Below are positions 436 through 33,100 of a stretch of DNA of 47,958 nt, in pieces. Below the pieces are notes generated by a model, which had not been told where the DNA came from, ran no database searches, and saw only the letters and a list, made by a program, of their open reading frames with translations. The translations under genes were made by a program, and so were the position numbers. This DNA comes from Cryomorphaceae bacterium. Its GTDB lineage: Bacteria > Bacteroidota > Bacteroidia > Flavobacteriales_D > Crocinitomicaceae. The DNA is taken from NCBI GenBank assembly GCA_021300505.1, contig JAJTDQ010000014.1, forward strand, positions 1 through 47,958. Direction: 5' to 3'. Position 1 is the stretch's first letter; each line of letters begins with the position of its first letter.

Positions 436-1602
436 TCAATACCCCATGATTTTACCTTTATCCACCGCGGGGATTCCATCCGTCAACCAAATAGGCGCTG
501 GCGCTCCTTGTAAATAATGGTCAAAAAACTGTCGCATACGGATGCTTAAATCCATGCGATTCGCATTTTCCATGAGGTTATGGTCATCGCCATTGTAGTT
601 CAGCAACCAGCACGGTTTTCCTAGGCGGCGCATGCCTGTAAACAATTCAATCCCTTGGTACCATGGCACCGCGCCATCCTTGTCATTGGCCATGATTAAC
701 AATGGCGTATGCACATTTGGCAAATGGAACAAAGGCGAATTTTCTCGGTACAGTTCAGGTGCTTCCCAGATCGTTTTTCCAATGCGGCTTTGAGTGCGTT
801 CGTACTGAAACTGGCGATTGACACCACTTCCCCAACGGATCCCGCCATAGGCTGAGAACATATTCGACACAGGCGCTCCGGCCATTGCCGCGCGGTAACG
901 TGTTGTCATCGTGATCAACTGCGCCGTTTGGTAACCTCCCCAACTTTGTCCTTGCAAGCCCATGCGTGTTGAATCGATAGCTGGAACCAACTTAAGCACA
1001 TAATCGGTACCACTCATGATACAGTCAAATGCAGATTGCGCAGGGTGTCCTACTTTATAGCGAATATCTGGAATAAACACCACGTATCCCGCAGAAGCAT
1101 ATTCCGTTGGATAAATAATCGACGCTGTAGGTTTCGGGACCGAATGGTTGAAGAGCTCATCGGAATTCAACTCATAATAATAAATCATCAATGGGTATTT
1201 CTTAGTTGGATCGAAATTCTCCGGTTTGTAGAGAAGCCCTTCGAGGGGAATGCCACTGTAACTTTTCCAATTCACCAATTCAACCCTTGCCCAATTGTAT
1301 TCAGACTGTTGAGCATTCGTTACTGAAACTTGACGCTCGCTGCTAAAATTATCCGCTGTCAGTCGCACATCTGGATACATGCTGATGGACATCTTTCGGA
1401 AGATGATGGATTCACCATTTTTCGAACGCGCCAAGAAATTGATTTTGTGATCGGTGTAATACATTTCTTTCACATCCAAATGATCTTGGTGATCAACCAA
1501 CTCATAGAGATGGGCACCCTTCGTTTTTTCATCAAACCCGGAGATATAGACATTTTTTGCATCGATATACACACTGTCCATATCCCAGAGATTCCACTCC
1601 AT
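436..1602 (-). pseudogene. S9 family peptidase, C-terminal catalytic part (out of frame with its N-terminus)
   Basis: This 388-codon reading frame carries the alpha/beta-hydrolase catalytic domain of a prolyl-oligopeptidase-family (S9) serine peptidase. The nucleophile motif GQSWGG has Ser220. The charge-relay Asp is in NDKDGAVPW (about Asp309) and the His in NGDDHNLM (His341). The frame contains the typical YISGFDEKTKGAHLYEL stretch that leads from the propeller into the hydrolase. The propeller and signal peptide are encoded in another frame at 1532-3094, so as the sequence stands the enzyme is split. An ATG exists at 1602, but a product starting there would lack the signal peptide and propeller and is unlikely to be an active secreted peptidase. 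The break coincides with a stretch that looks deleted, around 1575-1605. The intact gene would encode a secreted or periplasmic dipeptidyl- or acyl-peptidase of roughly 930-960 residues. Confidence 0.85.
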
Positions 1603-3094
1603 AAGGTTCTGGTGTTAATGGCATCCCATTCGCATCCGTTTGCCAATTGACATTTTTCACTGAGCAGGTCATGCAATTTTCTTTAGTGCTGCTCAAATTC
1701 TTGCTATAAAACTGACCATTTGTGCCATCAAACCATGAATACAAATTTCCTGATGGCGAAAGTGAACCATTGAATTCCACGCCTTCTTGAATGAGCTCAA
1801 CAGAACCATCAACGAGAGAAATGCGGTAATGGTCCTCACGACCGGGCACTTCCCACTGCTTCTCAAGAGCATAGCGTTCATCAGATGCCGCAAAAAGATA
1901 GGAGCCCTTCAAATTCTCGGTCAAACGTACATTCAAGGTGTCATCCGCTAGTTTCACGATGTTGTCATCCGACATGCGATATCTGAATAATGTACTGCGT
2001 TTTTCATCCCGTTTCAATTCAACCAACTGCTGCGACTGTAAACGCTTGTCTGCATAATGCCAAATGTCAACTTCTACCTTCTCCTTATCCAGAAGCGTAT
2101 CCTTCTTCGTCACCTCAGGACGTTCATCCACCCCGAAGAAAAGGTAATTTCCATCTTTCGTAAAGAGCAAATCAAAATTTTCAGTCACTGAATTTCCATC
2201 GCCAATGCGTACATCCGAGGTGTCAACCGAACGTGTCGTTTTCATTTCAAGCGAATAAATATAAAGCCCATACGCTTTGGCATCAGTCGTGTCATTACTC
2301 GCCAAGTAGGCAATATTTTTTCCAGAATGGTCAAACGTCAATGAAGTGATGGACGTATATTTTTTCGATATCGGACTCAAATCCATCGATGGAAATTGTC
2401 TCAAAAACAATTGATTGGAATCTATCTTCTCTTTTTGATGTCGGATGAAACAAAGATTTTCCCCCTTCCTTGAAATTGTGTAATCCGTCACATTGATAAA
2501 CTGGTCCTTTCTTAAAGCAAGTGGATCAAGCACCGTTAGTAATTTACCATCCGATTTGATTGGCGTAGCTTTTTTCTCTTTTTTAGCTAAAAAACACTTC
2601 TTTTTGGCCTTTTTTGCTGTGTTTTCATCATTTTTGATCACATTTTCATCAACAATGTAGGAGAGAAGATTGTGGTCTTCACCAACAGAAAACGACTTTA
2701 GTAAGGGAACTTTAATGAGTGAATCGCTTGCCAAAAGGTAAATTCCCAGACTGTCTTTCGGCCATTTTTTCTTATCGACCTTATTCAACTCACAATTGCG
2801 AAGGGTATCAAATCCCGGAAGTATGCGAAACGCGATGTAGTCACTATTCATTGAAAACTGCGCACCTTTTCCTCGCGGAATGGAATCCATTTTTCCAGAA
2901 TCGACGCGATAAATGTATAAGTAGCCATCGCCACGGTGCGGATTGATTTCGAAAGACACATACTTACCATTTGACGAAACCAATTGATTTTCATTTTTTT
3001 TCCATCCGTTGTAAGCGGTGTGATCAATGATTTTTTTTTGTCCAAACAGCAGTCCTGTAAAGAGTAAGCTCAACAAAAGAAGAGAATAACGCAT
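1532..3094 (-). pseudogene. S9 family peptidase, N-terminal signal peptide and beta-propeller part
   Basis: This is the 5' part of the broken S9 peptidase. It begins with a Sec signal peptide (MRYSLLLLSLLFTGLLFGQ). A long beta-propeller region follows, with family landmarks such as DIWHYADKRLQSQQLVELKRD, an LSPSGNLYSW blade, and NVNWQTDANGMPLTPEPYG. After PEPYG the frame runs into about 21 unrelated residues and a stop. Related S9 enzymes continue after the PEPYG-type motif with a blade containing a Trp-Thr plus YDxYDIW segment and a NLTNG-type turn. That segment is found in no frame here, so roughly 60-70 residues seem to be missing as well as the frame being lost. Residues 180-210 are very Lys-rich. 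The start ATG at 3092-3094 is supported by the signal peptide. Both halves are listed as one damaged gene. Confidence 0.85.
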
Positions 3095-3142
3095 GCGCAG
3101 TTGATTTTAGGGGATAAAAATACGAAAACGAAGGAAAGCAGA

Positions 3143-4264
3143 CTACACGAAGAGTTCGGATGCAATGTAATCCGCCATGAGACGGCCTTCACGCGTAAGA
3201 ATTAAGTGAGTATCCGTTTTTACCAACCATTTCTTTTCTTGGAAGTGCTTCAGTTTTGCGTCAAAATCCTTTGTTGGTGATGCGATTTGATGTAAATCGT
3301 GCAAATTTACTCCCCACGATGTCCGCAATCCTGTCATCAGTAATTCATTCCATCGCTCCTTTGAAGTCAGAACTTCACATTCAAACCATGTTTCATTCAG
3401 CCCGAAATCATTCATGTACTTGGCATTATTGGCAATATTCCATCGACGTTCAATGCCATTGTAAGAATGCGCAGAAGGACCAATACCGAGGTAGTTCACT
3501 CCTCTCCAATAATTGCTGTTGTGTTTAGCCTCCAAATCTGGCAGTCCGAAATTGGAAATCTCGTAGTGGTGAAATCCATGATTTGTCAATCGATCAATTA
3601 AGTGCAAAAACTGCTCGCTCTGTGCTTCTTCTCCACCAGGAGTAAGCTGACCTGAACTGACCAATTTATACAACGCCGTTTTTTTCTCTACAGTTAGGCA
3701 ATAGGCCGAAATGTGTTGAATTTTCATGTCAAAAACACGTTCGATGTGCGCATCCCACTCTTCGAGAGACAAATCTGGCAATCCGTAAATAAGGTCAACA
3801 CTGATGTTTATAAACCCTGCCGCTTGCGCAATCGACACACATTGCTCCGCTTCCAAGGCCGAATGCGATCGGTTCATCCATGAGAGATCATTTTCCCGAA
3901 AGGACTGCAACCCAATGGATAAACGGTTGATTCCAAGTGAATGCCAAGCCGTACAATTGGCTTCAGTGATATCATCTGGATTGGCCTCAAGGGTAATCTC
4001 TGCTGTAGTGGACACCTCGAAATTGGTGTTAATCAGAGTCAAAAAAGATGCGATTTCGCTGGGCACAAGCAAACTTGGTGTTCCTCCGCCAAAATAGATG
4101 CTCTCAATCACATGACCGGCAAGCTCAGCCTTTCTCGAAAGCAACTCAGACTGCATCGTCTCCAACATTCGTTCACGGTAAGTGGAAAAAGTTGTGCTAA
4201 AGTGAAAATCACAATAGGAGCACTTTTTTTTACAGAACGGAACATGGATATAAATGCCTGCCAT
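3143..4264 (-). CDS. hemW: Radical SAM heme chaperone HemW
   Basis: This 373-residue radical SAM protein has the cluster motif CKKKCSYCDF at Cys11, Cys15 and Cys18. The Phe at position 20 is the HemW signature; true coproporphyrinogen dehydrogenase HemN has Cys there. Further motifs are IYFGGGTPSLL, LEANPDD, LSIGLQSF, ISVDLIYGLP and HYEISNF, and the C-terminal HemN_C-like winged region is present. HemW binds heme and is thought to deliver it to respiratory proteins. I start it at ATG 4264 because the protein then opens with MAGIYIHVPFC. A longer frame to 4369 exists, but a perfect -7 promoter box (4269-4276) lies just upstream of 4264, so those bases are not translated. Transcription would begin almost at the start codon. 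It is divergent from the helicase gene at 4374. Confidence 0.93.
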   Translation of the reverse strand: MAGIYIHVPFCKKKCSYCDFHFSTTFSTYRERMLETMQSELLSRKAELAGHVIESIYFGGGTPSLLVPSEIASFLTLINTNFEVSTTAEITLEANPDDITEANCTAWHSLGINRLSIGLQSFRENDLSWMNRSHSALEAEQCVSIAQAAGFINISVDLIYGLPDLSLEEWDAHIERVFDMKIQHISAYCLTVEKKTALYKLVSSGQLTPGGEEAQSEQFLHLIDRLTNHGFHHYEISNFGLPDLEAKHNSNYWRGVNYLGIGPSAHSYNGIERRWNIANNAKYMNDFGLNETWFECEVLTSKERWNELLMTGLRTSWGVNLHDLHQIASPTKDFDAKLKHFQEKKWLVKTDTHLILTREGRLMADYIASELFV

Positions 4265-4268
4265 GGCG

Positions 4269-4276
4269 CAAAGATA
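4269..4276 (-). promoter_or_regulatory. Bacteroidota -7 promoter box for hemW
   Basis: The minus strand reads TATCTTTG, a perfect match to the Bacteroidota -7 consensus TAnnTTTG, ending 4 bases before the hemW ATG (4264). This predicts a leaderless or nearly leaderless mRNA and excludes the upstream alternative starts. I see no clear -33 TTTG at the expected distance. Confidence 0.6.
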
Positions 4277-4373
4277 CGTCATGTTGCCATGTGAGGTGAT
4301 GAAATCGTTGTTCGCGCGTATTTTCTTTGAACAATCATTTTGCCCTACCGCTTTTTTTAGTATCTTCAATGTA

Positions 4374-6668: not shown

Positions 6669-6673
6669 ATAGC

Positions 6674-6681
6674 TAATTTTG
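6674..6681 (+). promoter_or_regulatory. -7 promoter box upstream of the AIM24-family gene
   Basis: TAATTTTG matches TAnnTTTG exactly. It lies 25 bases before the ATG at 6707 and just after the helicase stop codon. No TTTG is seen at the -33 distance, which would fall inside the end of the helicase gene. Confidence 0.5.
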
Positions 6682-6706
6682 CACGAAAAAATTAAACACA
6701 AGAAAT

Positions 6707-7504: not shown

Positions 7505-7510
7505 TAAAAG

Positions 7511-7556
7511 AGACAAAAGACCCTTCCGCAAATGCGGAATTAAAGACAAAAGACCC
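7511..7556 (+). repeat. 13-bp direct repeat flanking a GC hairpin
   Basis: AGACAAAAGACCC occurs at 7511-7523 and again at 7544-7556. Between the copies is a perfect hairpin, TTCCGC-AAAT-GCGGAA (7524-7539). No T-run follows, so it is a poor intrinsic terminator. Nothing coding is seen in this spacer (7505-7675). Confidence 0.75.
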
Positions 7557-7613
7557 GCTGCGCTGTAAGACTTGATCATACTTCGTTAGCTAATACTTAA
7601 ATCACCAAATTTT

Positions 7614-7661
7614 TAATTCGTAATTCGTAATTCGTAATTCGTAATTCGTAATTCGTAATTC
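7614..7661 (+). repeat. Heptanucleotide tandem repeat (TAATTCG)n
   Basis: There are six perfect head-to-tail copies of TAATTCG and a seventh lacking its last base, ending 14 bases before the recJ ATG. It is noncoding on both strands. The unit length (7) differs from a codon multiple, so copy-number slippage would change spacing in the recJ leader rather than a protein. Confidence 0.95.
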
Positions 7662-7675
7662 TTTACAAATATCTC

Positions 7676-7801
7676 ATGAATAAGCGTTGGCTCATAAAAC
7701 CTCTCCCTGCACCAAATCCTGCATTCAAAACAGATTGCGTGGTGTCTAAGCTATTGATGCAACGTGGGATTCAGAGTCCTGTGGAGGCCCAATACGGTTG
7801 A
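7676..7801 (+). pseudogene. recJ: Detached 5' end of recJ
   Basis: ATG 7676 opens 41 codons (MNKRWLIKPLP, then SKLLMQRGIQSPVEAQYG) that match the normal RecJ N-terminus: W-I-(K/R)-P-L-P followed by xLLxQRGIxSxxEAxxF. The frame then hits TGA at 7799-7801. The rest of RecJ is in another frame beginning with a GTG at 7764. The conserved stretch that should follow EAQY (a short Phe-rich piece and a DPFxMKDM-type motif of about 25 residues) is missing. Confidence 0.85.
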
Positions 7802-9329
7802 CCGTGTGAATCGAGCGATGGAAAAGGGCGAGAAAATTTTACTCTTCGGGGATTACGATGTGGACGGCACTACAGCCGTAGCATTGATGCATACCATGCT
7901 CAAAAAACACTACGACAAGGTCGACTTTTACATACCTGACCGCTATGCCGAGGGATATGGTGTGAGTTTTATCGGAATTGACTTTGCTGCAGAAAATGGA
8001 TTCACTCTAATCATCTCTTTGGACTGTGGTATTCGTTCAATTGACCATGTCGCTCATGCACGAGAAAAAGGTGTTGATTTCATTGTATGCGATCACCACC
8101 AGCCAGGCGATGAGCTTCCCAACTGCCTTGTTCTCGATCCAAAGCGTTCAGATTGTCCTTATCCCTACAAAGAGCTTTCGGGCTGTGGCGTAGGATTTAA
8201 GTTGCTTCAAGGTTTGTCGATCCGAAACGATTGGTCGATGAACGATTTATTCGAAAACCTTGATTTATTGGCCATCAGTATTGGAGCCGACATTGTAGCG
8301 ATCACAGGTGAGAATCGCATTTTATGTGCACACGGATTAAAACAGCTCAATACACGTCCACGAATGGCCTTTCGCGAATTGCTTGCCGTAGCGAAAAAAG
8401 AATTCCCTCTTACACTAACAGATGTGGTTTTCGTGATTGCACCACGCATCAATGCGGCAGGTCGACTTAGAAGTGGGCGCATCGCGGTTGAACTCATGAT
8501 CTCTGAAAATATCGCTGCGATTCAATCTTTGGCCAGAGAAATTGATCAAGACAATCAAAATCGCAAGGCACTCGACAAAGCGATTACTACCCAAGCGATT
8601 GACATGATGGAAGAAGACCCGGCGTATGACGTGAAAAAATCAACGGTTGTGTTTCGGCCTGATTGGCACAAAGGTGTGGTCGGTATTGTAGCCTCCCGAC
8701 TTATTGAAAAGCGGTTCAGACCGACCATCGTTTTGACGGAATCAAACGGGAAGGCAACAGGTTCAGCACGCACAGTGAATGACTTTGACCTTTATGGCGC
8801 CTTGTGCGAATGCGCAGAACACCTCGAACAATTTGGTGGTCACCGACATGCAGCAGGGATGACCATGCCCTTGGAAAACGTTAAACCATTCATGGAAAAG
8901 TTTGAATCTGTAGTTCAAGAAACCATTTCATCTGAAGACGAATTTCCTACTGTGAAAATTGACTTGGAGGTGGAATTCAATCAAATTTTCTCCAAAACAG
9001 AAAACAGAACGATGGTTCCTCAGCTAAAACGCGATTTAGCCGGATTTGAGCCGCATGGCCCAGGAAATATGACGCCTGTGTTTATGGCGCGAAATGTATA
9101 CTCACGTGATTTTCGAATTCTAAAAGACGCACACCTTAAACTCCTAGTAACTCAGCCTCAATACGACATTGCCATCGATGCCATTGCCTTCAACATGGCC
9201 GATAAAGTTGACCTCATCACACATGGGATTCCATATGATATCGCGTTTACCTTGGAAATTAATGCCTGGAATGGAAAGGAAACATTGCAGTTGAACATTA
9301 AAGATATTCGTGAAGCGGAACAATCCTAA
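7764..9329 (+). CDS. recJ: Single-stranded-DNA exonuclease RecJ, N-terminally damaged
   Basis: This is the body of RecJ, the 5'-3' single-strand-specific exonuclease of RecF-pathway and mismatch repair. The DHH catalytic motifs are all present in the 521-codon frame: FGDYDVDGTTA (motif I, about residues 29-38), ISLDCG, IVCDHHQPGDELP (Asp110-His-His112) and the AISIGADIVA motif. The DHHA1 part has VGIVASRLIE and FGGHRHAAGMTM. A C-terminal OB-like domain follows, ending near LNIKDIREAEQS. Real homology begins at TVDRVNRAMEKGEK; the first ten residues from GTG 7764 are out-of-frame sequence. ATG 7818 is the first internal ATG that keeps motif I. The genuine N-terminus is in another frame (7676-7801). 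The gene is either inactive or relies on internal initiation. Its stop overlaps the convergent Kelch gene by 4 bases. Confidence 0.85.
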   Translation: MGFRVLWRPNTVDRVNRAMEKGEKILLFGDYDVDGTTAVALMHTMLKKHYDKVDFYIPDRYAEGYGVSFIGIDFAAENGFTLIISLDCGIRSIDHVAHAREKGVDFIVCDHHQPGDELPNCLVLDPKRSDCPYPYKELSGCGVGFKLLQGLSIRNDWSMNDLFENLDLLAISIGADIVAITGENRILCAHGLKQLNTRPRMAFRELLAVAKKEFPLTLTDVVFVIAPRINAAGRLRSGRIAVELMISENIAAIQSLAREIDQDNQNRKALDKAITTQAIDMMEEDPAYDVKKSTVVFRPDWHKGVVGIVASRLIEKRFRPTIVLTESNGKATGSARTVNDFDLYGALCECAEHLEQFGGHRHAAGMTMPLENVKPFMEKFESVVQETISSEDEFPTVKIDLEVEFNQIFSKTENRTMVPQLKRDLAGFEPHGPGNMTPVFMARNVYSRDFRILKDAHLKLLVTQPQYDIAIDAIAFNMADKVDLITHGIPYDIAFTLEINAWNGKETLQLNIKDIREAEQS

Positions 9330-10501
9330 TGGTGGATTTGGATGGATTGATGACGATCTTCCATCTTGAGTATGTATGTTCCGTTAACAAGGGTTGACAC
9401 ATCTATTGTTGTGTTTTCAACTTCCGCAATGGATGAAAATACAAGTTTACCAGAAAGATCGTGAAGTGTAATGACAGCTCCTATGTCAGTGCTAATTGTC
9501 AAGAAATCAGTACATGGGTTTGGAAAAGCAATCCATTGAATAGATTCAGTTGGCACATTCAACACATTGGAAATTCGCCATGTTTCCTTGAAACGTTCAC
9601 TGTTCGAGATTCCTGTCGTGAAATAAAAGTCAGGGCCAAAGGCAAAGGACATTATACCTTTTCTAGAGGTGGAAACGAAAGAAGTCGATCCAGTTAGCAC
9701 CCAAGTATTGACATCTAGAACTTGAAAATCATTCAAAACCACATTCGACGCATCCAACCCACCAAAAAAGGAGACAAGATTGTTCACGCGTGCAGTACCG
9801 GTATAACTTCTTGGTGAAAGACCTGGATTGGGGAGTGATGTCCATTGCTGAGATGCCGGATTATACTGATGAAACTCCGTGTTCAATTCCGTTTGGCTGT
9901 TCAAGTTGTTTCGTCCTAATCCAACAAAACCAAGATTGTTGTACTCGAAAGAAGTGCCTCTCCAGATGCCATTGCCTGGAAGCGCTGTTTTTTGAGACCA
10001 ATGGTTGTTACTGATGTCGTAGCCCCACACATCCGTTAATATTCCTTGTTGATTTTTTCCTCCCACGATGTACAACGTATCGTTCAATACGAAGTGAACA
10101 GATCCACTTCTGCCATCTGCTGGCAATGGGGCGAGCACGGACCAACTGTTCAAAAGCGGGTTGTATTGCCACAAATCATTGCAAAACGTACCATCACATT
10201 TTACGCCACCAAAAATATAGCCGCTTCCATTGTTGGATGTACCCACGGCGTATTGTCTTTCTTCACCTAAGGGCAAATCAGCACAATCAGACCATGTCAT
10301 TGTCAGTCCATTGAATCTGTAAAAATCGCGCATGCAACTGAAACCACTATCTCGCCCCAAGCCTGTATAAACGAACGAATCGATGACAAAGCAACTGCCG
10401 TCATCTCGAGGTGTACCTGGGAAATCTTCCAATTGTTGCCAGATCTGTCCAAAGGCAGTGCAAGATAAACAGGCGATAGAAAGAAATAGAATTTTGATCA
10501 T
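9326..10501 (-). CDS. Secreted Kelch-repeat protein with T9SS type A sorting domain
   Basis: This 391-residue protein starts with a Sec signal peptide (MIKILFLSIACLSCTAFG). Kelch-type beta-propeller blades repeat between about residues 25 and 310: examples are GYIFGGVKCDGTFCNDLWQY, TLYIVGGKNQQGILTDVWGY, and similar NNLVSFFGG repeats with W-x-x-L/P turns. The last about 75 residues are a T9SS sorting domain: IAFPNPCTDFLTI, ITLHDLSGKLVF, and STLVNGTYILKME. It should be exported through the SprA translocon and released or surface-anchored. Ligand unknown. It converges on recJ with a 4-base overlap and lies downstream of the glutaryl-CoA dehydrogenase gene, whose terminator separates them. Confidence 0.9.
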   Translation of the reverse strand: MIKILFLSIACLSCTAFGQIWQQLEDFPGTPRDDGSCFVIDSFVYTGLGRDSGFSCMRDFYRFNGLTMTWSDCADLPLGEERQYAVGTSNNGSGYIFGGVKCDGTFCNDLWQYNPLLNSWSVLAPLPADGRSGSVHFVLNDTLYIVGGKNQQGILTDVWGYDISNNHWSQKTALPGNGIWRGTSFEYNNLGFVGLGRNNLNSQTELNTEFHQYNPASQQWTSLPNPGLSPRSYTGTARVNNLVSFFGGLDASNVVLNDFQVLDVNTWVLTGSTSFVSTSRKGIMSFAFGPDFYFTTGISNSERFKETWRISNVLNVPTESIQWIAFPNPCTDFLTISTDIGAVITLHDLSGKLVFSSIAEVENTTIDVSTLVNGTYILKMEDRHQSIQIHH

Positions 10502-10536
10502 ACAGGCTAAACGTGCTTTGTGAAGGTGTATTGCAT

Positions 10537-14052: not shown

Positions 14053-14177
14053 TTTGTTTTTATGCTGTTTAGATAAATAATGTCTCCAAAAAATGGTTAG
14101 AATAAAAAATTGACGTAAATTCGAACGCGTTAGCTTACCAAAGTTAACCATTGTCTAAACCAAAAAATTTTCAAAGA

Positions 14178-15674
14178 ATGAAAAAACTATTACTTTCTGC
14201 CCTTGCGCTGTCAAGCATTGTGGCAATCAACACTTCAACTGCTCAAATTGCGGATGGTTCTGTTGCGCCTAATTTCACAGGAGTTGATTTGAATGGAAAT
14301 TCTCACACACTTCAAGATTATCTTAATGCTGGTAAAACAGTGATCTTAGATATTTCTGCTACGTGGTGTGGTCCTTGTTGGAATTATCATAACACTCATG
14401 CTTTAGGTGATATTTATAACGCCTATGGTCCAGAAGGCTCGGATGAGGTAATGGTTTTCTACATTGAAGGAGACAACGCTACTACGGTTGCGGATTTAAA
14501 TGGAACAGGTGGAAATACTCAAGGTGATTGGGTAACAGGAACACCATATCCAATTATCAATAGTGGTTCAATTGCGGATTTGTATGAGATAACCTACTTT
14601 CCAACCGTTTACCGCATATGCCCAGATGGTTTTGTTTATGAAATCGGAGCACTCTCTGCAAGTAATTTGAAATCAAATATCAACGCGAATTGTGGAGCAT
14701 CAAACCAGTTAAATGGAATTACAAATCATGCTGAACTTAAAGGTGATGAAATTGCTTTGTGTTCAACTTCAGGTCAAGCAACTGCTGAGATTAAGAATTT
14801 TGGAACAAATAACATTACCAGTGCAACAGTTGTTCTTAAAGAAAACGGCTCACAAGTGAGTTCAGCTCCATTTTCTGGTAACTTGGCGCAATTTGCAACC
14901 GGATCAGTCACTTTCCCATCTTACGCGTTCAATTTAGCGGCAAATTATTCTATCCAATTAACAAACGTTAACAGTGCTGCTCCTGCAAGCGCAGCATTAA
15001 CTTCGGATAATGTTGGTGTGGTATCTGCAAATATGTCTGGATTAAATATTACTGTTAAAGTATACACAGATAATTATCCAGCAGAAACAACTTGGGAAAT
15101 CCGTAATTCCGCAACGAATGCTTTGGTAGCTTCTGGTGGACCATATGTTGGCGCAGCGGGTACCGCGGCGGGAGGGCCTGATGCACTTCAAACAAAAACG
15201 CAAAATGTAACTCTTCCGGCTGGAAACAATTGTTACAAAATAATAATGAATGATTCATATGGGGATGGATTCGGATATGGTACTAATCCTGCTGGTCAAT
15301 ATGGAATCGAAGTTATTTCAAATGGTAGCAGCGTGATTAACTTAGATCTTGGTAACTTTGGAAACACTTTAACAAGAGACGCTGCACTTAAAACGGATGG
15401 AAGCTCGATTTTAGATGAGTTAGCTTTAGGAGATATTAGTGTATTCCCTAACCCTGCATCTGATGAGTTGAACGTTTCTTTCGAAGCTACAAACGCTGAT
15501 TACCAAGTTTCTATCCTTGACCTTCAAGGACGTGTAATCACTGCAAAAACTCTTCAATCAATCAACGGAACTTCTACGGTTACTTTCCCAGTTGCTGACA
15601 TGGCAAAAGGAAGCTACATCGTAACTGTTGTTTCTAACGGAATCACAACGACTAAAAATGTGGTGATCAAATAA
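14178..15674 (+). CDS. Secreted thioredoxin-fold protein with T9SS type A sorting domain
   Basis: This 498-residue protein has a signal peptide (MKKLLLSALALSSIVAINTSTAQ). A thioredoxin/TlpA-like domain (about 30-175) follows, with APNFTGVDLNG and the redox site TWCGPCWNYH, then TYFPTVYRICPDG. The middle contains a CARDB-like or Ig-like region (about 185-300). Next is a domain ending NCYKIIMNDSYGDGFGYG (about 300-410), whose acidic DSYGDGF loop is common in extracellular Flavobacteriales proteins and may bind calcium. The last about 75 residues are the T9SS sorting domain (ISVFPNPASDELNVSF, ILDLQGRVI, MAKGSYIVTV). The ATG at 14178 gives the signal peptide; a TTG at 14151 is rejected. An intrinsic terminator follows at 15694. 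It probably acts outside the cell on disulfides; the substrate is unknown. Confidence 0.9.
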   Translation: MKKLLLSALALSSIVAINTSTAQIADGSVAPNFTGVDLNGNSHTLQDYLNAGKTVILDISATWCGPCWNYHNTHALGDIYNAYGPEGSDEVMVFYIEGDNATTVADLNGTGGNTQGDWVTGTPYPIINSGSIADLYEITYFPTVYRICPDGFVYEIGALSASNLKSNINANCGASNQLNGITNHAELKGDEIALCSTSGQATAEIKNFGTNNITSATVVLKENGSQVSSAPFSGNLAQFATGSVTFPSYAFNLAANYSIQLTNVNSAAPASAALTSDNVGVVSANMSGLNITVKVYTDNYPAETTWEIRNSATNALVASGGPYVGAAGTAAGGPDALQTKTQNVTLPAGNNCYKIIMNDSYGDGFGYGTNPAGQYGIEVISNGSSVINLDLGNFGNTLTRDAALKTDGSSILDELALGDISVFPNPASDELNVSFEATNADYQVSILDLQGRVITAKTLQSINGTSTVTFPVADMAKGSYIVTVVSNGITTTKNVVIK

Positions 15675-15785: not shown

Positions 15786-17999
15786 ATGGCGAAAATACGC
15801 AAACAGGAAGCACTCGACTATCATTCATCGGGGAAACCGGGGAAGATTGAAGTAATTCCTACCAAACCATATTCATCTCAACGAGACTTGTCTCTCGCCT
15901 ATTCACCAGGTGTTGCTGAGCCATGTCTGAAAATTGCTGAAAATAAAGAGGACGTCTACAAATATACCAGTAAAGGGAATCTTGTCGCTGTAATTTCCAA
16001 CGGAACGGCGGTGCTCGGACTTGGAGATATTGGTCCTGAAGCATCAAAGCCAGTGATGGAAGGAAAAGGATTGCTTTTCAAGATTTTTGCAGACATAGAT
16101 GTGTTTGATATTGAAGTAGATGCGAGCGACCCTGAATTGTTCATTCAAACAGTAAAAGCCATCGCGCCGACTTTTGGAGGAATCAATTTGGAAGATATCA
16201 AGGCTCCCGAAGCCTTTGAAATTGAGCGACGCCTCAAAGAAGAACTCGATATACCGATCATGCATGATGACCAACACGGAACGGCGATTATTTCGTCAGC
16301 TGCCTTGTTGAATGCGCTTGAATTGGCGAAAAAGAAAATTGAAAACGTTAAAATCGTTGTTTCTGGTGCAGGGGCTTCAGCGCTTTCGTGCGCGAAGTTA
16401 TACCATGCCTTAGGAGCAAAGTTGGAAAACATATTTATGTTCGACTCCAAAGGACTTATATGTCAAGAGCGAACAGACCTAGATCAAACTAAAGTATTGT
16501 TTTCATCACATAAAAAATCCATTGATCTCATCACTGCATTCAATAAGGCAGATGTATTTCTTGGACTTTCACGAGGAGGACTGGTGAGCAAGGACATGAT
16601 CAAAGCCATGGCGAAGGATCCCATTGTTTTTGCACTAGCGAATCCTGAGCCGGAGATTTCCTACAAAGAAGCGACATCTGTTCGTAAGGACATTATCATG
16701 GCGACTGGTCGCTCTGACCATCCTAACCAGGTGAACAATGTGCTTGGATTCCCTTTTATTTTCCGTGGCGCATTAGATGTGCGTGCAACAACCATCAACG
16801 AGGAGATGAAATTGGCAGCAGTGAAGGCCATTGCTTCTTTGGCAAAAGAAACAATACCTGAGGAGGTGATTGAAGCCTATGGCGAAAAGAACATCATGTT
16901 CGGTCGCGAACAAATCATCCCGAAACCTTTAGATCCTCGTCTGATTTACTACGTTGCGCCAGCTGTAGCTAAAGCAGCAATGGACTCCGGAGTTGCAAGA
17001 AATCCAATCGCCGATTGGGATGCTTACGAAATGCAGTTGAAAAACCGCTTAGGTCTTGACAATAAGCTAGTTCGTAACATCACGGCAAAAGCGCAAGAGA
17101 ATCCAAAACGTGTTGTCTTTGCTGAAGCAGACAACATTAAAATCCTTAAGGCTGCTCAAACAGCTATGGAGGAAGGTGTTGCCTTCCCTATTCTACTCGG
17201 TAAACGGAGCAAAATTGAGTCACTTATTGAGGAGTATGCGATTGAGATGCCAGATGTGCTGATCATCGATCCAAAAGCAGAAGAGGAAGACGATCGTCGC
17301 GCAGCCTATGGTAAAGCATTTTTTGAAAAACGGAAACGTAAAGGATTCACTGAGTTTGAATCCGTTCAAATCATGCGTGAACGTAACCACTTTGGCGCAA
17401 TGATGGTCGAAATGGGTGATGCAGATGCCATGATTTCCGGTTTGACTCGTAGCTATAGAAATAGTGTTCGACCAGTTCTTCAAACCATTGGACTTGAAAA
17501 AGATGTCAATACTGTTGCTGGATTGTACATTCTGAATACAAAGCGTGGTCCTTTGTTTTTGGCAGACACGACCATTAACTTGAATCCAACGGCTGAACAA
17601 ATCGCTGAGATTACAGCCAATGTGGCGAAGACGATTCGTAAATTCAAAGTCACTCCACGCATTGCTCTATTGAGCTACAGCAACTTCGGATCATCTATTG
17701 GTCCTGATGCCGAAAAAATGTCTAAGGCCGTAGAAATCTTGCACGACAAATACCCAAGCTTAGTGGTTGATGGTGAAATTCAAGCAAACTTTGCGCTGAA
17801 TAATGATCTTCTGATGGAGAAATTTGCCTTTTCACACTTGGCGAATAAGCAGGTAAACACATTGATTTTCCCTAATCTTTCCTCAGGAAACATCACCTAC
17901 AAGGTTTTACAAGAGATGATCGACCTCCAATTGGGATCAAGTGTTCGAGAAATCATTAACATGGTGAAAGTAGCCGTTGTTGACGCTCAAAACAAATAA
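15786..17999 (+). CDS. maeB: NADP-dependent malic enzyme with C-terminal phosphotransacetylase-like domain
   Basis: This 737-residue fused enzyme converts malate to pyruvate and CO2. The malic half (1 to about 420) has [46 protein letters not shown], the metal and substrate site [11 protein letters not shown], the nucleotide site [14 protein letters not shown], and [10 protein letters not shown]. The PTA-like half (about 430-737), regulatory in homologs, has [33 protein letters not shown] and [21 protein letters not shown]. Homologs then have about 18 more residues with an IGPxLxGxxKPVHxLQ motif. Here the sequence jumps from QEM straight to the [14 protein letters not shown] end, so a short in-frame deletion is suspected near 17911-17930. 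A weak -7-like TATCTTTA lies at 15760-15767. ruvA starts 2 bases downstream. Confidence 0.93.
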
Positions 18000-18578: not shown

Positions 18579-21500
18579 TTGAAAAGGAGTCAAAACATAT
18601 TGTTTAAACACCTCACTACTACATTCTTCACCTTCGTAGTATTTGTGTTATTTACCTCTATGGGGCAACTGTTTGCGCAGGACACTCTGCCATTTCCTAT
18701 TCAAAATAATATCGATCCAACGCAGACTACACCACAAAGTTTTGATCTTGGAGACCCCAGTTCTGTAAAGCAAACGATAGTGTATGACCCAATTACGGGA
18801 AGGTACATTTTTAAAGAAACAATTGGCAATGAACTAAATTTCAGAAATCCATCCATGATGACACTGGAGGAATACTTGGAATATGAGCGCCAGAAAGCAC
18901 TTCGTGAAAATTGGAAGGATAAAATTGAGCAGCAGACCGCTAAGGGCCAACCAATGGAATTTCCAATAAAGATTGGAAGTAAGGCATTTGAAAACTTCTT
19001 TGGTTCGGACCAAATCACAATCCGTCCTCAAGGAAGTGTTGAATTGTCCTTTGGTGTAAACTCGTCGCGCTACGATAATCCAATCTTGCCGGTGAAACAA
19101 CGACAGATTACGCGTTTCGACTTTCAACAACAGATCCAGCTCAACCTCGTAGGTCAAATTGGAACGAAACTTAAAATAGGAACAAGCTACAATACCCAAG
19201 CAGCCTTCGATTTCGACAATGTTTCGAAGTTAGAATATACAGGAGACGAGGACCAAATCATGCAAAAAATTGAGTTGGGGAATGTGGCCATGCAGTTGCC
19301 AACTTCCTTGATTCAAGGGTCACAAACACTTTTTGGGGCGAAAACAAAATTAAAGTTCGGTCGATCAACATTTGACATCATTGCAGCTTCGTCGAAAGGT
19401 AAACGTCAAGAGATCAATATCACTGGCAAGGCCCAAGTTCAGCGATTTGAACTTGGTGCTGATAATTACGAAGCGAATCGTCACTATTTTGTGAACTTAT
19501 ATCACCACGATCATTACGACGAAGCAATGTCGACATTGCCCATCGTGAATTCAACCATGGCCATCACCCGAATCGAGGTTTGGTTGACCAACCGAACAAA
19601 CAACACTGAAAATACCCGAAATGTTATTGCATTTTCCGATTTAGGTGAAGGAAAACAAAGCAACTGTGAAGGAAACCCTGGCGGTTTTGGTCCAAGTGAC
19701 ATTCCCGACAACGAGGCCAATGGACTTTACGCATGGGCATCAAACCAATCCACTGTTCGTGGGTTTTCCAATGCCGTACCTGCACTAACATCTCAAATCA
19801 CAACACCTGGACCTTTCCAGCAAGCGGTGCATTTTGAAAAGGTAGAAAACGCTAGAAAACTTACTGAGCAAGAGTTTTCCTATAATGCGCTTCTAGGATA
19901 TATCTCATTAAATCTTCCCTTAAACAACGACGAGGTATTGGCTGTGGCCTATGAATATACCTACCGTGGAGAAACCTATCAAGTTGGTGAATTCTCAACA
20001 GACGGTGTCGCTGGTCAACAAGCGCTAATCCTGAAGTTATTGAAGCCAACCATCACAAATCCAAAAAATAAAGTGTGGGATTTGATGATGAAGAACGTTT
20101 ACTCAATCGGTGCTTATCAGGTGGATCAAACAGGATTCAGAATAGACCTTTTGTACAACAATCCAGAAACATCTGTGCTTGTTCCCTTCTTCCCATTAGA
20201 GGGTGTCGATGACGAACAGCTTGTTACGTTATTGGAAATGGATAAGCTGAATCAAAATCAGCAACCTTTCGCGGATGGGGTTTTCGATTACGTTCCAATC
20301 AATTTTACTGGGAATAGAGCCGATAATGGTGGAACTATAAACACCCGAAATGGGCGCGTTTACTTCTCGACAATTGAACCATTCGGCGCCACACTAAAGG
20401 CAAAACTAGAGGCAGAGAATATACCTCAGGTTATCGTGGATAAGGTTTCCTTCACGGAATTGTACGACTCCACAAAAACTGCGGCTCAGCAAATCCCGAG
20501 TAAAAATCGTTTTACCTTTAAAGGAGAATACCAATCCTCCGTAAGTTCAGATATTCCGTTAAATACGCTCAATGTACCACAAGGTGCAGTAACTGTAACT
20601 GCAGGAGGAATTAAACTTACTGAAGGCGTAGATTATACAGTGGATTACAACCTTGGTAGAGTTAAAATCCTTAACAGCGGAATTCTAGAGTCAAACACAC
20701 CTATCAAAATTTCCATTGAAAGCAATTCCGTCTTTGGCTTTCAAGCCAGGTCGATGATTGGAATGCACTATAATTATCGATTTAACGAAAACTTCAATAT
20801 AGGTGCGACATGGATGCGGATGATGGAACGACCTGTTACACAAAAAGTCGATATCGGAAGTGAACCTTTCAAAAACAACATTATAGGTATTGACTTAGCC
20901 GTCAAAACAGAATTACCATTCATTACAAAGCTTGTTGACCTTTTGCCGGTTATTTCAACAACCCAAAAATCAACACTCTCTTTTACAGGTGAATTTGCAC
21001 ATTTGATTCCCGGTCAACCTAGAGCCATTAATAAAGATGGAACTTCCTATGTTGATGATTTCGAAGGTTCCCAAAGCGCTATTGATTTACGTGCATCAAC
21101 TGCGTGGAGGCTTGCTTCAACACCACAAGGCCAACCCGATCTATTCCCTGAAGGTCAAAGTAAAAATCTTTCTGCAGGGTACAAGCGTGCACAAACATCA
21201 TGGTACTTGATTGACCCCTTATTTTATCAAAACAACTCACTGACACCACAGCATATCAAGAATGATCCGACAATGCTTTCGGATAGTCGTATGCGCCTTG
21301 TTAATCAAAGGGATATCTTCCCCAACCTTCAACAGCAATACGGTTCAATTACAAATATTCCTATCCTTGAGCTTGCCTACTATCCAAAGGAGCGTGGGAT
21401 GTATAACTACGATACCACAAATGCGATTTTACCTGATGGCTCTTTCTCCAATCCAGAAAATCGATGGGGTGGAATTATGCGTGCATTATCTACAAATGAC

Positions 21501-25904: not shown

Positions 25905-25906
25905 GC

Positions 25907-26353: not shown

Positions 26354-26387
26354 AACAACCTTTTCCTCTTGAACGTGTTTAACAATT

Positions 26388-27311
26388 ATGGCAGAGTCAA
26401 AGAAAATACTAATCGCTGGTGGAACTGGCTTTATAGGTAAAACACTTGTTCACGAATTGCGCAACGCTGGTCATGAAGTGCGAATCCTATCAAGAAAATC
26501 AGATTCAGCGAATGTCTATATCTGGAATCCAGCGAAGAAAGAAATGGATATTACCGCATTCGAAGGCGTTCAAGTTCTTATCAACCTTTGTGGTTCCGGC
26601 ATTGCAGATCAACGTTGGACATCAGAACGAAAAAAAGACTTACACGAATCACGCGTCGGGACGAATGCACTCTTGTTCAGCATGATTGAGTACATGCCTA
26701 CCCTTGAACAATTTATTTGTGCCTCAGGAATCAATGCTTATGGATTCGATATTGATGATGTACAACATCCAGAAACTGATCCGTTTGGTACCGATTTCCT
26801 TTCAGATTTGGTGAAAGAATGGGAAAAGAGTGCAGATGTATTCGCTGTGAAATGTCCAGTGGTTAAAGTGCGGACTGCTGTGGTTCTGGGTCGCAAAGGT
26901 GGCGCGCTAACACGCATGCTCCCAGCGATTAAATTAGGCATTGGCTCACCACTTGGGAAGGGGACTCAAATCATGCCTTGGATCCATGTCGAAGATTTGG
27001 TTGGAATCATCATTCACGCCATGAACCATCATCTAGAAGGTGCATACAATGCTGTAGCACAATGCGATTCCAACAAGACTTTTATGCGAACACTCGCTAA
27101 ACAACTCAAGAAACCTTTCTTCTTTCCTGCCGTCCCAGCCTTTGTCATGCGCATACTTTTCGGAGAAATGGCCGATGTATTATTGCAGGGGACAAGTGCG
27201 TCGAATCAGAAAATAATTCAGTCGGGATTTGTGTTTAGATATCACACTTTAGATGCTGCCTTAAACAATGTATTCACCTCCTTCACTACAAAAGATCATT
27301 CGCCAAGTTAG
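26388..27311 (+). CDS. TIGR01777 family NAD(P)-dependent epimerase-like protein
   Basis: This 307-residue extended short-chain dehydrogenase-like protein of the TIGR01777 (YfcH/SulA) family has Rossmann motif AGGTGFIGKTLVHELRNAGHEV at the N-terminus. Further signatures are VLINLCGSGIADQRWTSERKKDLHESRVGT, ICASGINAYGFD and KVRTAVVLGRKGGALTRMLPAIKLGIG. The C-terminal DUF1731 region has PWIHVEDLVGII, GAYNAVA and FFPAVPAFVMRILFGEMADVLLQG. The reaction in bacteria is unknown. It lies 34 bases after the GNAT gene. Its last 26 bases overlap the 3' end of the convergent PhoH gene. Confidence 0.92.
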   Translation: MAESKKILIAGGTGFIGKTLVHELRNAGHEVRILSRKSDSANVYIWNPAKKEMDITAFEGVQVLINLCGSGIADQRWTSERKKDLHESRVGTNALLFSMIEYMPTLEQFICASGINAYGFDIDDVQHPETDPFGTDFLSDLVKEWEKSADVFAVKCPVVKVRTAVVLGRKGGALTRMLPAIKLGIGSPLGKGTQIMPWIHVEDLVGIIIHAMNHHLEGAYNAVAQCDSNKTFMRTLAKQLKKPFFFPAVPAFVMRILFGEMADVLLQGTSASNQKIIQSGFVFRYHTLDAALNNVFTSFTTKDHSPS

Positions 27312-28605: not shown

Positions 28606-28756
28606 ACTCGTTTTTATTTAAAGGTAGCGAGGCGGTGAAGCAAAGTCTTTTTCCCCAATCAATAGTTATTTACAGCTGAATGTTAGATATGCAGGAAGTT
28701 CAATGAATACAGCGAACAAAATCGAAACTGTCTTGTTTATTTAACAAAGGCTTAAA

Positions 28757-29344: not shown

Positions 29345-29345
29345 A

Positions 29346-30674
29346 TTATAAGAATTTATTTCTTCGAATAATACGATCTACAGGGATATAGATTGTTCCA
29401 AAAGCCTCGTTGCGGCTCAACGAATCCAAACTAAATTGCAAACGCGTTCCTCGCTCTGTCCAAACGCCATTGTTTCGTCGATGTTCCTCAAGAGCAGGTG
29501 TACTCGCACCGGAGTGGAAGATGAAATAATTATCCTTCTTTTTGAAACGCAAGGCTGGTGAAAATAAGAATCGGAATTTGTCTTCTTCTTGCGTAATTAT
29601 TCCCTTGGTCATCAATCGATTGAATAGTGACTGACCTTTCTCATTCATCGAAAGTATTAACGAAAATCCGGGAACTGAGACATTTCTCTTCTTCTCAACC
29701 TCTGTCACATTAAAATCTTCGTCAAGAACTGATTCAATATACGTTTCCTGAACCGTTTGTAATCCGCCTTGTCGAAAAGATAAATCCCCATCCCATGCAT
29801 TCAGAAATTCTGCTGTTGGAAACCCAATCTTGCGTCCCAATTTTACCAGCCACATATAAATTGGATCTGTCGGATTTGTTCTCAACTTGGTAATATCGAG
29901 GTGAATATTGAGCATTTTACTTGCAAATTCGCCCTCCTTAAAGCTCAGTCCAGGAGATTTCATTGAGATATTCAATGGTTTAGAATTGCGCACATACGCC
30001 AACAAACTAAAACTAACAGAGTCACTATCGTGCGCGAAAATCGCTGTTTTAATTCCATTTTCCTTGAGCTTCTTCCAATTCGAGTAGATGACTAATTTCT
30101 CCTTTCGGAAGTGCTTTTCACGTAAAAATGCTTTCCAGCATGGTTCAAGTGCATAGCGCTTCGCTTCACTAACCCGTTTTAAAATCGGCTCGAAGTTCTT
30201 GCCTTTGTAGACCAACAAATAATTTTTTCCGTAAGACAAATACCCATTCTCAGCTGGATACGAATACGCCTTTTGTTCATTGATCAAGGTGTCACGAATA
30301 TCTACGAATTTCCGCAAGCGTTCGATCCCTTGAAATATTTTGCTACTATCGCTCACATGAATCAACGCACCCCATTGGCCTGTTTCATAAGCAAAGAAGT
30401 AAACTGGGTCTTGCAGATTGAGTCCATACAATTTGCCTTGACCGAGCAAAAACTCGTACGAGAAGAAATCACGGTAAGGAATTTTATGGTAAAACAACAT
30501 ACCACTGGTCTCGCGAGCTACATCAAGTAAATAGGCTCGTCCTAGGAAATCGGCTTCGGGCAAACGATCTTCAATTCTAGGCAGATCTACTTTTCCAAAT
30601 AAAATTGGCCTTAAATAAAGGAACACACCTAATGCAACAGAAAGAATTAAAATAAGGACAACCTTCTTAAACAT
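29346..30674 (-). CDS. Membrane-anchored envelope protein of unknown function
   Basis: I do not recognise a characterised family in this 442-residue protein. It has one N-terminal membrane anchor (VVLILILSVALGVFLYLRPILFG, about residues 5-27) and a long, presumably periplasmic, domain rich in beta-strand and aromatic residues. Conserved-looking pieces are EADFLGRAYLLDVARETSG, FFSYEFLLGQGKLYG and LNIHLDITKLRTNPTDPIYMWL. The way it opens (a YEFL helix, then 'short residues-L-D/Q-DPVYFFA') resembles the neighbouring 30684-32549 protein, so the two may be distant paralogues with repeated DUF4836/DUF3352-like modules; that is inference. It follows the upstream gene by 9 bases and is probably the last gene of a three-gene operon. 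Confidence 0.75.
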   Translation of the reverse strand: MFKKVVLILILSVALGVFLYLRPILFGKVDLPRIEDRLPEADFLGRAYLLDVARETSGMLFYHKIPYRDFFSYEFLLGQGKLYGLNLQDPVYFFAYETGQWGALIHVSDSSKIFQGIERLRKFVDIRDTLINEQKAYSYPAENGYLSYGKNYLLVYKGKNFEPILKRVSEAKRYALEPCWKAFLREKHFRKEKLVIYSNWKKLKENGIKTAIFAHDSDSVSFSLLAYVRNSKPLNISMKSPGLSFKEGEFASKMLNIHLDITKLRTNPTDPIYMWLVKLGRKIGFPTAEFLNAWDGDLSFRQGGLQTVQETYIESVLDEDFNVTEVEKKRNVSVPGFSLILSMNEKGQSLFNRLMTKGIITQEEDKFRFLFSPALRFKKKDNYFIFHSGASTPALEEHRRNNGVWTERGTRLQFSLDSLSRNEAFGTIYIPVDRIIRRNKFL

Positions 30675-30683
30675 GAAGTTGAA

Positions 30684-32549
30684 TTATTTCGAAATGACAT
30701 AGATACTGTTCAACAAATCGAGAAGATATTTCCCTGAATTGTCATAAACACCCTGATAATTATACTCCAAAGTAAGGTTTGTTTTCTCCTTGCTGGTTTT
30801 TGACGATGTCAGCTCCATGGTTCCCGTTTTACCGCGCATGGCCTCAATAATTTCATTTTCTCGCTCACTGAAGAAGTCACGAGGGAATCGTTCAATCGCC
30901 CTAGCCCAGTCTATGTGAGCATACATGAAACCGCTCTTCTTTGCGCGCTTGGCCTCTTTTTTAGACAAGGCTTCCTTACCGAATCCGGCAGAATGTCGCA
31001 TCGCTAAGTCTGCGTCATTGGTAAAAATGAATAAGCCATTTTGATTAATCATGTATAAATCTGCAGCGTCTAGGATGGCACGTTCATATACCCAGTATGT
31101 ACCCATATTTTTAAATCGAGAGGTCAAACGCGACAAGTGCTTCAACACTTTATCGGGAATATCTGCGCGCTCTGTCGAAAACCCAATGGTAAAGATTGGC
31201 ATATCCTCCTCGGCTTCAACTTCACGCTCACTATATTCAAAGGTTTCTTCGTCGTAGCTGAATTCAATTTTTGTTGTTTTAATCTTTTGAATACCGTTGA
31301 AAGTACCAAACATACTTCCCTTATATGTCCCAAATAAAGCGTCCTTGTTGATGAACTCATTTAGCAATTCTATGGTCAATACATTTGAGCTCATGCGGGC
31401 ATTTTTCTCCGAAGATAAAATCGGCATGATCACCTTGTAAGCTTGTTCGTATGCTTCACGCAAATTCACATTGTAGGTGAAAAATGCTGTGTTGTCCTGA
31501 TGGATATATTTTAAGACATCTTTATCGAACTTTGAATCGTTCATTTTTTCATAAATGGATCCGAGTTCTTCACCATAGCGCACTTCCATCTTAAACTCTA
31601 CAGACGCTTGATTTAGGATAAGATCACCAAGAATCACATTTCCTGTGTACAGCTCCTTCATGTCCTCAAACAACGATGGAAACATTGTTTGCATGTACCA
31701 CATACCTTGAGCTTTTTGAAGGTTCCGTGAATTGTCAAGGTAGAAAACACCTTCCGAGGTATGTGTCAACTGCTCCGCAAAACGAGTGTCTGAATTGACG
31801 AGATTGATCTGTCCTACAAACAATTCCTCACACAGGGCAGAAAGGTATTCCATTTCCAACATCACTTGTACACTATCGCGCAATTCGTAATAGTTTTTCT
31901 CGAGTAAATTCTCTTCCTCTAAAATCCCTTCAATTCCCTCCTCTTCAAGCAACTCCTCATCAGACTCCTCAGCCGGTGCATCATTTTCGTCGAACTCAAA
32001 CTCACCTTCCATCAACTCACCATCGCCATCAAACTCCTCATAACCCTCTATATAGTAAGGATTTTCATTCCCGCGAGAGTACCAAATCGAATCCGTGACT
32101 TCATCGATTTTTTCCATGTTTGGTTCAACACGTACGAGTAAGGCTGCATCGCCTTTGATGATTAAATGGTTGAAATAAGAGCTGTAAAATTCAACACCTG
32201 GATAGAGGTCTTCTTCTTTTTCAAAATCATCAAAAACGACAAATAAATCTTGTTTGTCCTTGATGCCTAAAGTAAACCCAGACACCTCATAATTTTGACC
32301 TTTGCCGTAAAAGACATTCAACTTTTGATCGAAGTCAATTCCTGAGTCTTTCAATGTTTTTCCAGTAGTAGAACCATCGAATAATTCTTGCTGGACCTCT
32401 TCCATGAATTCATAGCGCACAAGGTCGTCCAATGAGATTTTCTGTAAAAGGCTGATGTTGTTCAAACTGAACACTGTCACGGCATCTTTTGGGATGAGTG
32501 CTTCTGATTTTGTAGTGGCGGGAAGATCGGTCATGCTTTGACCTGTCAC
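30684..32549 (-). CDS. Acidic DUF4836-like envelope protein, probably missing its signal peptide
   Basis: This 621-codon frame resembles DUF4836-type proteins of Bacteroidota (IPKDAVTVFSLNNISLLQKISLDDL near the start); function unknown. Residues 164-217 form an extremely acidic stretch (runs of Glu/Asp). The rest alternates beta strands and helices, with a Lys/Glu-rich segment near FGKEALSKKEAKRAKK. The only starts are GTG 32549 and ATG 32534. Neither gives a signal peptide, yet the same frame read upstream of the GTG encodes ILSSALGVTGQS, which looks like the tail of one, before a stop with no start codon. The neighbour ending at 32564 also looks truncated. I infer a deletion that joined the 3' end of one gene to the body of the other. 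It is followed after 9 bases by 29346-30674. Confidence 0.75.
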   Translation of the reverse strand: MTGQSMTDLPATTKSEALIPKDAVTVFSLNNISLLQKISLDDLVRYEFMEEVQQELFDGSTTGKTLKDSGIDFDQKLNVFYGKGQNYEVSGFTLGIKDKQDLFVVFDDFEKEEDLYPGVEFYSSYFNHLIIKGDAALLVRVEPNMEKIDEVTDSIWYSRGNENPYYIEGYEEFDGDGELMEGEFEFDENDAPAEESDEELLEEEGIEGILEEENLLEKNYYELRDSVQVMLEMEYLSALCEELFVGQINLVNSDTRFAEQLTHTSEGVFYLDNSRNLQKAQGMWYMQTMFPSLFEDMKELYTGNVILGDLILNQASVEFKMEVRYGEELGSIYEKMNDSKFDKDVLKYIHQDNTAFFTYNVNLREAYEQAYKVIMPILSSEKNARMSSNVLTIELLNEFINKDALFGTYKGSMFGTFNGIQKIKTTKIEFSYDEETFEYSEREVEAEEDMPIFTIGFSTERADIPDKVLKHLSRLTSRFKNMGTYWVYERAILDAADLYMINQNGLFIFTNDADLAMRHSAGFGKEALSKKEAKRAKKSGFMYAHIDWARAIERFPRDFFSERENEIIEAMRGKTGTMELTSSKTSKEKTNLTLEYNYQGVYDNSGKYLLDLLNSIYVISK

Positions 32550-32563
32550 ACCTAGAGCGCTAC

Positions 32564-33100
32564 TTAAGATCGAGTGATTGAAGTGTAAGTTCCTTGTTTG
32601 AGTAGGGCAATGTCTTCTTGTTGAAATTCGGTTGTTTTTTTAACAGAGATTTCTGGGATTGATCGTACCAATTTTTGACCATCCCAGTTCAACCAAATGG
32701 CGTCCAATTCTGGGACATTTTTGTCGCGCAGTTCATCACGCACCACTTCTTTAATCGCCGTTTGCAGTGCTGTTACACTGGTAAAATCGCAGCGAAGTTT
32801 GAAAACAAAATTTTCAAAATCAGACTCTACGGTAACATTTGAGATACCCGACTTGGCATCCAATTTTTTCTGAAATTCTGAAATTCTATTGTTCAACTCA
32901 GAAATTGACGGTACTCGTATTCCATTTATACTGTCCAAAGCAAGGATGGATGTAACTTTTACCTTGCTTGAGCTTAAATTGATGGTGTATTTTAATGTTC
33001 CACTGCCGTCATTGTTGATTTTAATATCATCCACCAATTCAATGCATGAATTGAGAAAAGCCGTGCAGAACAAAAGCAATGAAAACGTCCAAAATTTCAT
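32564..33100 (-). CDS. Lipoprotein of unknown function, probably truncated at the 3' end
   Basis: This 178-residue predicted lipoprotein has signal peptide MKFWTFSLLLFCTAFLNSC with a lipobox (LNSC, lipidated Cys19). The mature part starts with IELVDDIKINNDGSGTLKYTINLS. The 'NNDGSGT' strand pattern is seen in a common family of Bacteroidota lipoproteins of unknown role. A helical segment follows (SISELNNRISEFQKKLDAKSG), then paired strands and a QQEDIALLKQGTYTSITRS end. Relatives, as I recall them, run on for a few dozen residues after the GxYxxxxR strand, so the early stop at 32564 suggests loss of the C-terminus at the same point where the next gene lost its N-terminus. It is probably the first gene of the three-gene envelope cluster. 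Confidence 0.78.
   Translation of the reverse strand: MKFWTFSLLLFCTAFLNSCIELVDDIKINNDGSGTLKYTINLSSSKVKVTSILALDSINGIRVPSISELNNRISEFQKKLDAKSGISNVTVESDFENFVFKLRCDFTSVTALQTAIKEVVRDELRDKNVPELDAIWLNWDGQKLVRSIPEISVKKTTEFQQEDIALLKQGTYTSITRS

Follow-up and report, generated by a model that had tools for sequence, protein, structure and literature searches.

Recurrent short sequence losses across a Crocinitomicaceae draft genome very probably correspond to assembly gaps closed without gap letters

Introduction

Local assembly errors and misplaced N letters have been recorded for metagenome assemblies, including the placing of N between overlapping flanks, an error documented for assemblies made with IDBA-UD and CLC (Chen et al., 2020; PMC7111523). 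The draft genome considered here, termed G000, resembles the MAGs described in that study in showing short unsupported joins that damage protein-coding genes in otherwise correct scaffolds, with a run of 48 N in G000 recalling the N placed between overlapping flanks. It differs in that the passages of the same report dealing with such errors do not describe gaps that were bluntly closed without N, as is proposed for G000. Spurious pseudogenes created in the course of assembly offer a second point of reference (Cooley and Wright, 2024; PMC11017572). Like these, the genes affected in G000 appear broken in a single assembly but not in its close relatives, and internal stops are seen in both. Yet, the portion of that work relied upon here concerns frameshifts and internal stops, whereas losses of 40–265 bp are the striking class in G000.

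Chimeras arising during whole-genome amplification (MDA) also join non-adjacent sequence across a genome, as seen in G000. In the published description, however, 85% of such chimeras are inverted, and at least 2 bp are shared at 90.9% of direct joins between sites less than 10 kb apart (PMC1855051). Such predominant inversion and priming homology were not seen in G000. Finally, in the relevant part of a study on gene loss in endosymbionts, deletions were counted in genes and not in bases (PMC1544356), and that study was not used for comparison.

Materials and Methods

The window, namely, the whole stretch of DNA analyzed (47,958 nucleotides), corresponds to contig C143 of G000. This draft, from an uncultured member of the Crocinitomicaceae group, totals 2,408,460 bases over 174 contigs. 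The closest named relatives of the window DNA are metagenome bins labeled Flavobacteriales, Flavobacteriia or Crocinitomicaceae. Several public bins closely matching the S9 peptidase gene addressed below carry implausible names, i.e., Chitinophaga pinensis, Chryseobacterium gleum, Candidatus Kuenenia stuttgartiensis and Actinomyces viscosus (loci L144, L145, L156, L165, L190 and others), apparently placeholder or mistaken labels.

Comparison involved four congeneric sister genomes, G008, G024, G011 and G004, which are collinear with the window at ~81–91% identity, depending on the block; ~42.7 of the 48.0 kb of the window were open to such comparison. For the draft-wide comparison, 559 kb of G000 (38 contigs, some partial), corresponding to about one quarter of the draft, were set against 1.22 Mb of G008, yielding 277 kb of aligned sequence. 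Divergence from G008 is 18% for G000 and 10% for G024. Losses were counted as clean length differences of at least 40 bp. Alignments shorter than 100 bp or of no more than 72% identity were excluded beforehand, as were contig pairs for which aligned sequence totaled less than 1500 bp, pieces out of collinear order, and any gap where more than 30 bases on the shorter side failed to align.

To assess damage to genes, 851 G008 genes were considered, of which 631 falling outside the G000 sample and 28 cut by contig ends were set aside; in-frame losses bridged by the aligner were scored as intact. Small indels were counted at the protein level, with nucleotide counts being rejected as evidence, as gaps of 1–2 bases were balanced (107 deletions and 109 insertions in G000) and mostly resembled alignment noise. 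The labels of genes for which no family hit is cited (e.g., hemW, gpsA, lysC and feoB in the d12/d3 set) are those we presume from their translations.

Results

The initial annotation had drawn attention to four joins in the window as sites of short deletions. Alignment to the sisters revealed each to be a real discontinuity in the given sequence, with 134, 62, 51 and 242 bp (about 45, 21, 17 and 81 codons), respectively, having been lost. Of these lengths, only 51 is divisible by three, such that three of the four joins break frames, as had been proposed.

At the first join (1590–1605), base-level alignment to the sisters placed a loss of 134 bp at position 1593, within a gene encoding an S9-family peptidase, with bases 1594–1602 being alignable to both flanks. 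As a result of the broken frame, the gene reads as two fragments on the reverse strand, namely, a C-terminal fragment containing the Peptidase_S9 domain (436–1602; residues 543–930 of the G008 protein) and an N-terminal fragment (1532–3094; residues 1–503). The missing segment is present at equal length in all four sisters covering the site (G008, G024, G011 and G004), and the frame is open for at least 850 codons at 73 of 80 public loci; at the remaining seven, it extends past the beginning of the stored sequence. A search of the bin for this segment using a 171-base sister probe, conducted with no positive control, did not find it elsewhere. At the second join (7785–7796, at 7789), 62 bp are gone from near the start of recJ (7652–9329, forward strand), which now comprises two frames corresponding to residues 1–38 and 61–571 of the G008 protein. 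The segment appears at equal length in the three sisters that cover the site (G008, G024 and G011), the G004 contig beginning later. In agreement, the RecJ profile match starts at position 43 in G000, as compared to positions 2–4 in 21 of the 24 genus genomes with a match; the other exceptions are G004, where the gene is cut by the contig end, and G023, where only a partial match exists.

The third join (17920–17926, at 17923) reflects the in-frame loss of 51 bp (17 codons) from the phosphotransacetylase-like (PTA_PTB) domain of maeB (15786–17999, forward strand; malic, Malic_M and PTA_PTB domains), such that the predicted protein comprises 737 residues, rather than the 754 of its G008 counterpart. 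All four sisters contain the segment at equal length. At the fourth join (32543–32571, at ~32563–32566), 242 bp are missing over the boundary of two reverse-strand genes. One, encoding an acidic protein with a DUF4836 match (30684–32549), has lost its start, while the other, encoding a lipoprotein-like protein (32564–33100; residues 1–177 of the 225 found in G008), has lost its end. Up to 27 bases at this junction are poorly alignable to either flank. The segment is found at equal length in both G008 and G004, the two sisters compared here, and is also present in G024.

Additional length differences were noted in the window. A 51-bp piece with a GC content of 0.69, absent at position 42600 (42598–42602) and present only in G008, is one of the 32 losses counted below; it may be a gain in G008, the sole sister covering the site. 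A small protein encoded at 42403–42999 on the reverse strand matched Y1_Tnp (IS200-like transposase) below threshold, at 19.7 bits relative to a cut-off of 23. Conceivably, this protein is a transposase of the REP-associated type, with a link to the dispersed repeats. One dispersed intergenic repeat, at 7508–7661, gave 63 alignments, overlapping ones included, in 1.22 Mb of G008 and 13 in 559 kb of G000, while a second (~18633–18757 of locus L036) matched dozens of places in each sister. Intergenic differences of 259 bp relative to G024 and of 85 bp relative to G011 occur at 7523–7619. Elsewhere, 894 bp of the window (9591–10484) are absent from G024, and G004 contains 965 bp more at 27276 in the window alignment. 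The gene for a secreted redoxin-like protein bearing a Por_Secre_tail sorting domain (14151–15674, forward strand) shows many smaller in-frame indels, in both directions, between sisters.

Across the 277 kb aligned, G000 was the shorter sequence at 32 clean differences of at least 40 bp and G008 at 3 (sign test, p 4e-7). The G000 losses consist of 31 of 40–265 bp and one of 5181 bp, or roughly one short loss every 9 kb. This rate is typical of the sampled draft and as such, the clustering of joins in the window assumed earlier was not borne out. One of the three instances where G008 was shorter corresponds to the 48-N run in G000; no duplicated flanks were found at the other two. Between sisters, the same count gave 4:0 in 167 kb for G024 and G008, 0:0 in 43 kb for G004 and G008, and 0:0 in 22 kb for G011 and G008, with three further sister pairs yielding 0:0, 0:1 and 0:0 (20–42 kb each, largely from the region of the window itself). 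When G000 was compared to G024, it was shorter eight times and longer once. Relative to G008, 31 short losses were counted in 277 kb of G000 and two in 167 kb of G024 (p 5e-5), with G000 also being the more diverged. Some excess of indels in G000 is natural given this greater divergence, but a natural excess would not be one-sided.

A further seven joins, lying beyond the window, were checked manually in the other sisters. These correspond to losses of 75 and 96 bp (C139), 71 and 129 bp (C89), 147 bp (in clpP; C1), and 174 and 233 bp (C17). In each case, the segment was present in every covering sister (three or four), with lengths agreeing within about 1 bp. It is on these seven joins and the four in the window that agreement in length across several sisters rests. 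The differences at L030:7000, L115:10189 and window position 42600 look natural to us, yet were kept among the 31 short losses.

The single large loss lies at position 12212 of C139 (L022), where 5.2 kb found in G008 and G024 are absent from G000 across a clean join. The missing segment is what we take, by resemblance, to be an efflux-type operon. When sought elsewhere in G000, only distant matches (66–73%) on C108 were detected. This gap represents either a true difference in gene content or a large misjoin. The preceding 12-kb block of the same contig (L022:1–12211), which holds rpoC, is ~91% identical to both G008 and G004, with the remainder of the contig being ~80% identical. On C89, 1.1 kb (L036:18703–19800) is 98% identical to contig C89 of G011, with neighboring DNA being ~80–90% identical, reflecting either a recent exchange or a piece that is shared or has been misplaced. 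A plasmid search returned no match.

The initial annotation had called for broken conserved genes to be counted. Such counting scored 25 of 192 testable G008 genes as broken in G000, as opposed to 3 of 126 in G024, 0 of 25 in G004 and 1 of 14 in G011, i.e., 4 of 165 in the three sisters pooled (Fisher p 2e-4). Sixteen of the 25 contain one of the 32 gaps; the other nine contain none of these, their disruption being due to stops, small changes or less clear-cut differences. Considered by position, 25 of the 32 losses fall entirely inside an open frame of G008 (one such frame, of 105 residues, being doubtful), six do so in part, and one not at all; 11 of the 25 falling entirely inside a frame are multiples of three. 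The genes hit include lpxB, clpP, paaZ and that encoding dTDP-glucose 4,6-dehydratase. Of the 24 genomes of the genus in which ClpP was matched, 22 contain a copy starting at profile position 2–5, while that of G000 starts at 54 and that of G018 is only a fragment at a contig start. AlaS is complete in G000.

Small frameshifts were rare at the protein level, with two in 85,312 residues of G000 and two in 51,095 residues of G024. By contrast, 17 raw in-frame stops were counted in the same G000 residues, as compared to one in G024. Several of the 17 are found at alignment edges or beside gaps, while some are mid-gene, as in rpoC, the single G000 copy of which contains an in-frame TAG near codon 130 (L022:7390, on C139) where G008 has a sense codon. 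The rpoC match in G011 also shows one stop, indicating that G000 is not alone in containing base errors.

At the 31 short joins, flank overlap showed a median of 0, the same as in 4000 simulated random cuts (KS p 0.50). Hence, microhomology, as in the 9-bp repeat at the first join, was rejected as a common signature, although an excess persists, with overlaps of at least 9 bp at 5 of the 31 joins, as opposed to an expected 1.7% (p 2e-4). Some of these five may be real slippage events or overlap-based joins. The exact run shared by the flanks averaged 1.1 bases, compared to 0.6 in 3000 simulated cuts (Mann–Whitney p 0.08), and 13 of the 31 loss lengths are multiples of three (p 0.20 relative to one third).

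The lost pieces were similar to their flanks in terms of both GC content (0.43 vs. 0.42, p 0.47) and conservation between sisters (mean of 0.881 inside and 0.888 outside; 14 comparisons at eight joins). As such, neither composition nor conservation of the lost pieces was retained as the cause of their loss. Runs of N, of uncertain origin, are found three times in the 559 kb of G000 (38, 48 and 81 N) and not once in the 1.22 Mb of G008. In G024, two contigs appear as N over their full length. The 81-N run corresponds to 113 bp in G008. The two sides of the 48-N run (on L118) have 6 bases in common and, at the 38-N run, the aligned G008 span is 48 bases shorter than that of G000, pointing to little or nothing being missing.

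Discussion

The four joins are very probably assembly errors, with contig ends having been butted over short gaps, the letters for which were lost or never written. According to this proposal, built on sequence comparison, the data would have left holes of about 40–265 bp, a size expected to be typical of sequencing gaps, at many places in the draft. These presumably correspond to random gaps in thin read coverage, and the resemblance of the lost pieces to their flanks in both GC content and conservation fits such holes. The flanking contigs would have been correctly ordered and oriented, presumably via read pairs, and their ends butted without gap letters, with the apparent loss of N meaning that each hole would now read as a clean deletion. 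The persistence of three N runs in G000 shows that gap letters were not lost everywhere. Moreover, two of these runs are found where the sisters show no missing sequence, which is the reverse of what is seen at the joins and is unexplained by the butting of contig ends.

That the assembly graph was broken by closely related strains present together, such that the joins are chimeric or bubble-type errors, is unlikely. Strain mixture is among the causes of fragmented and chimeric metagenome bins recorded in the pertinent passages of PMC7111523, and would account for stray stops as well, the one in rpoC among them. Still, the lost pieces are not more conserved between sisters than are their flanks, although this is a weak test. 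Chimeras introduced by whole-genome amplification would likewise join non-adjacent sequence genome-wide in a single sample, but are extremely unlikely here. Exact runs of at least 2 bp are shared at only 7 of the 31 joins, the sister used in this measurement being diverged. Of 28 contig pairs, none has alignments of at least 300 bp on both strands and, at that scale, no inverted joins were seen.

It is very unlikely that the losses reflect genome decay, namely, that a lineage recently released from selection on many genes has been accumulating deletions of 40–265 bp in conserved genes. The elevated share of broken genes, the raised count of raw in-frame stops, and the five joins with short repeats, as slippage would leave, all speak for decay. 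Against it stands the constraint on broken genes, which is the same as that on intact genes, d12/d3 in the window being 0.104 for six segments of five broken genes and 0.116 for 16 intact genes, a test that is blind to very recent loss. Moreover, one of the only two small frameshifts in G000 lies beside a large gap, and the size of G000 is about that expected of an 85%-complete draft of the genus. As to the stops, their raised number fits either base errors or decay. Loss of RNA polymerase should be lethal and as such, interruption of the only rpoC gene favors base errors. A living lineage, perhaps a transient hypermutable population, that undergoes frequent, mostly blunt, end-joining-like deletions of 40–265 bp and was under purifying selection until very recently is scarcely credible.

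Of the readings offered in the initial annotation, i.e., an assembly artefact, an amplification artefact or real gene decay, it is thus the assembly artefact that is strongly supported, given how the losses are one-sided, widespread, mostly blunt and not significantly frame-preserving, together with the stop in the only rpoC. Amplification was not supported, since junction homology and orientation are unlike those of published MDA chimeras, nor was decay, as constraint is kept and small frameshifts are rare, even if raw in-frame stops are raised.

These findings serve mainly as a warning. Completeness and contamination scores (85.16 and 1.99, respectively, in G000) are blind to gaps lacking N letters, while one-sided gap counts relative to near relatives offer a cheap test for assemblies containing such gaps. 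The caution voiced earlier with respect to novel truncated proteins from this contig was well placed, as losses are found draft-wide; truncated or fused proteins of the G000 draft are unsafe to interpret, and those that are truncated should not be called novel. While the biological interest of the losses is small, their recurrence across the sampled draft and their rarity in close relatives mean that they are almost certainly not a real biological feature of this bacterium, but instead reflect errors of assembly, rather than evolution.
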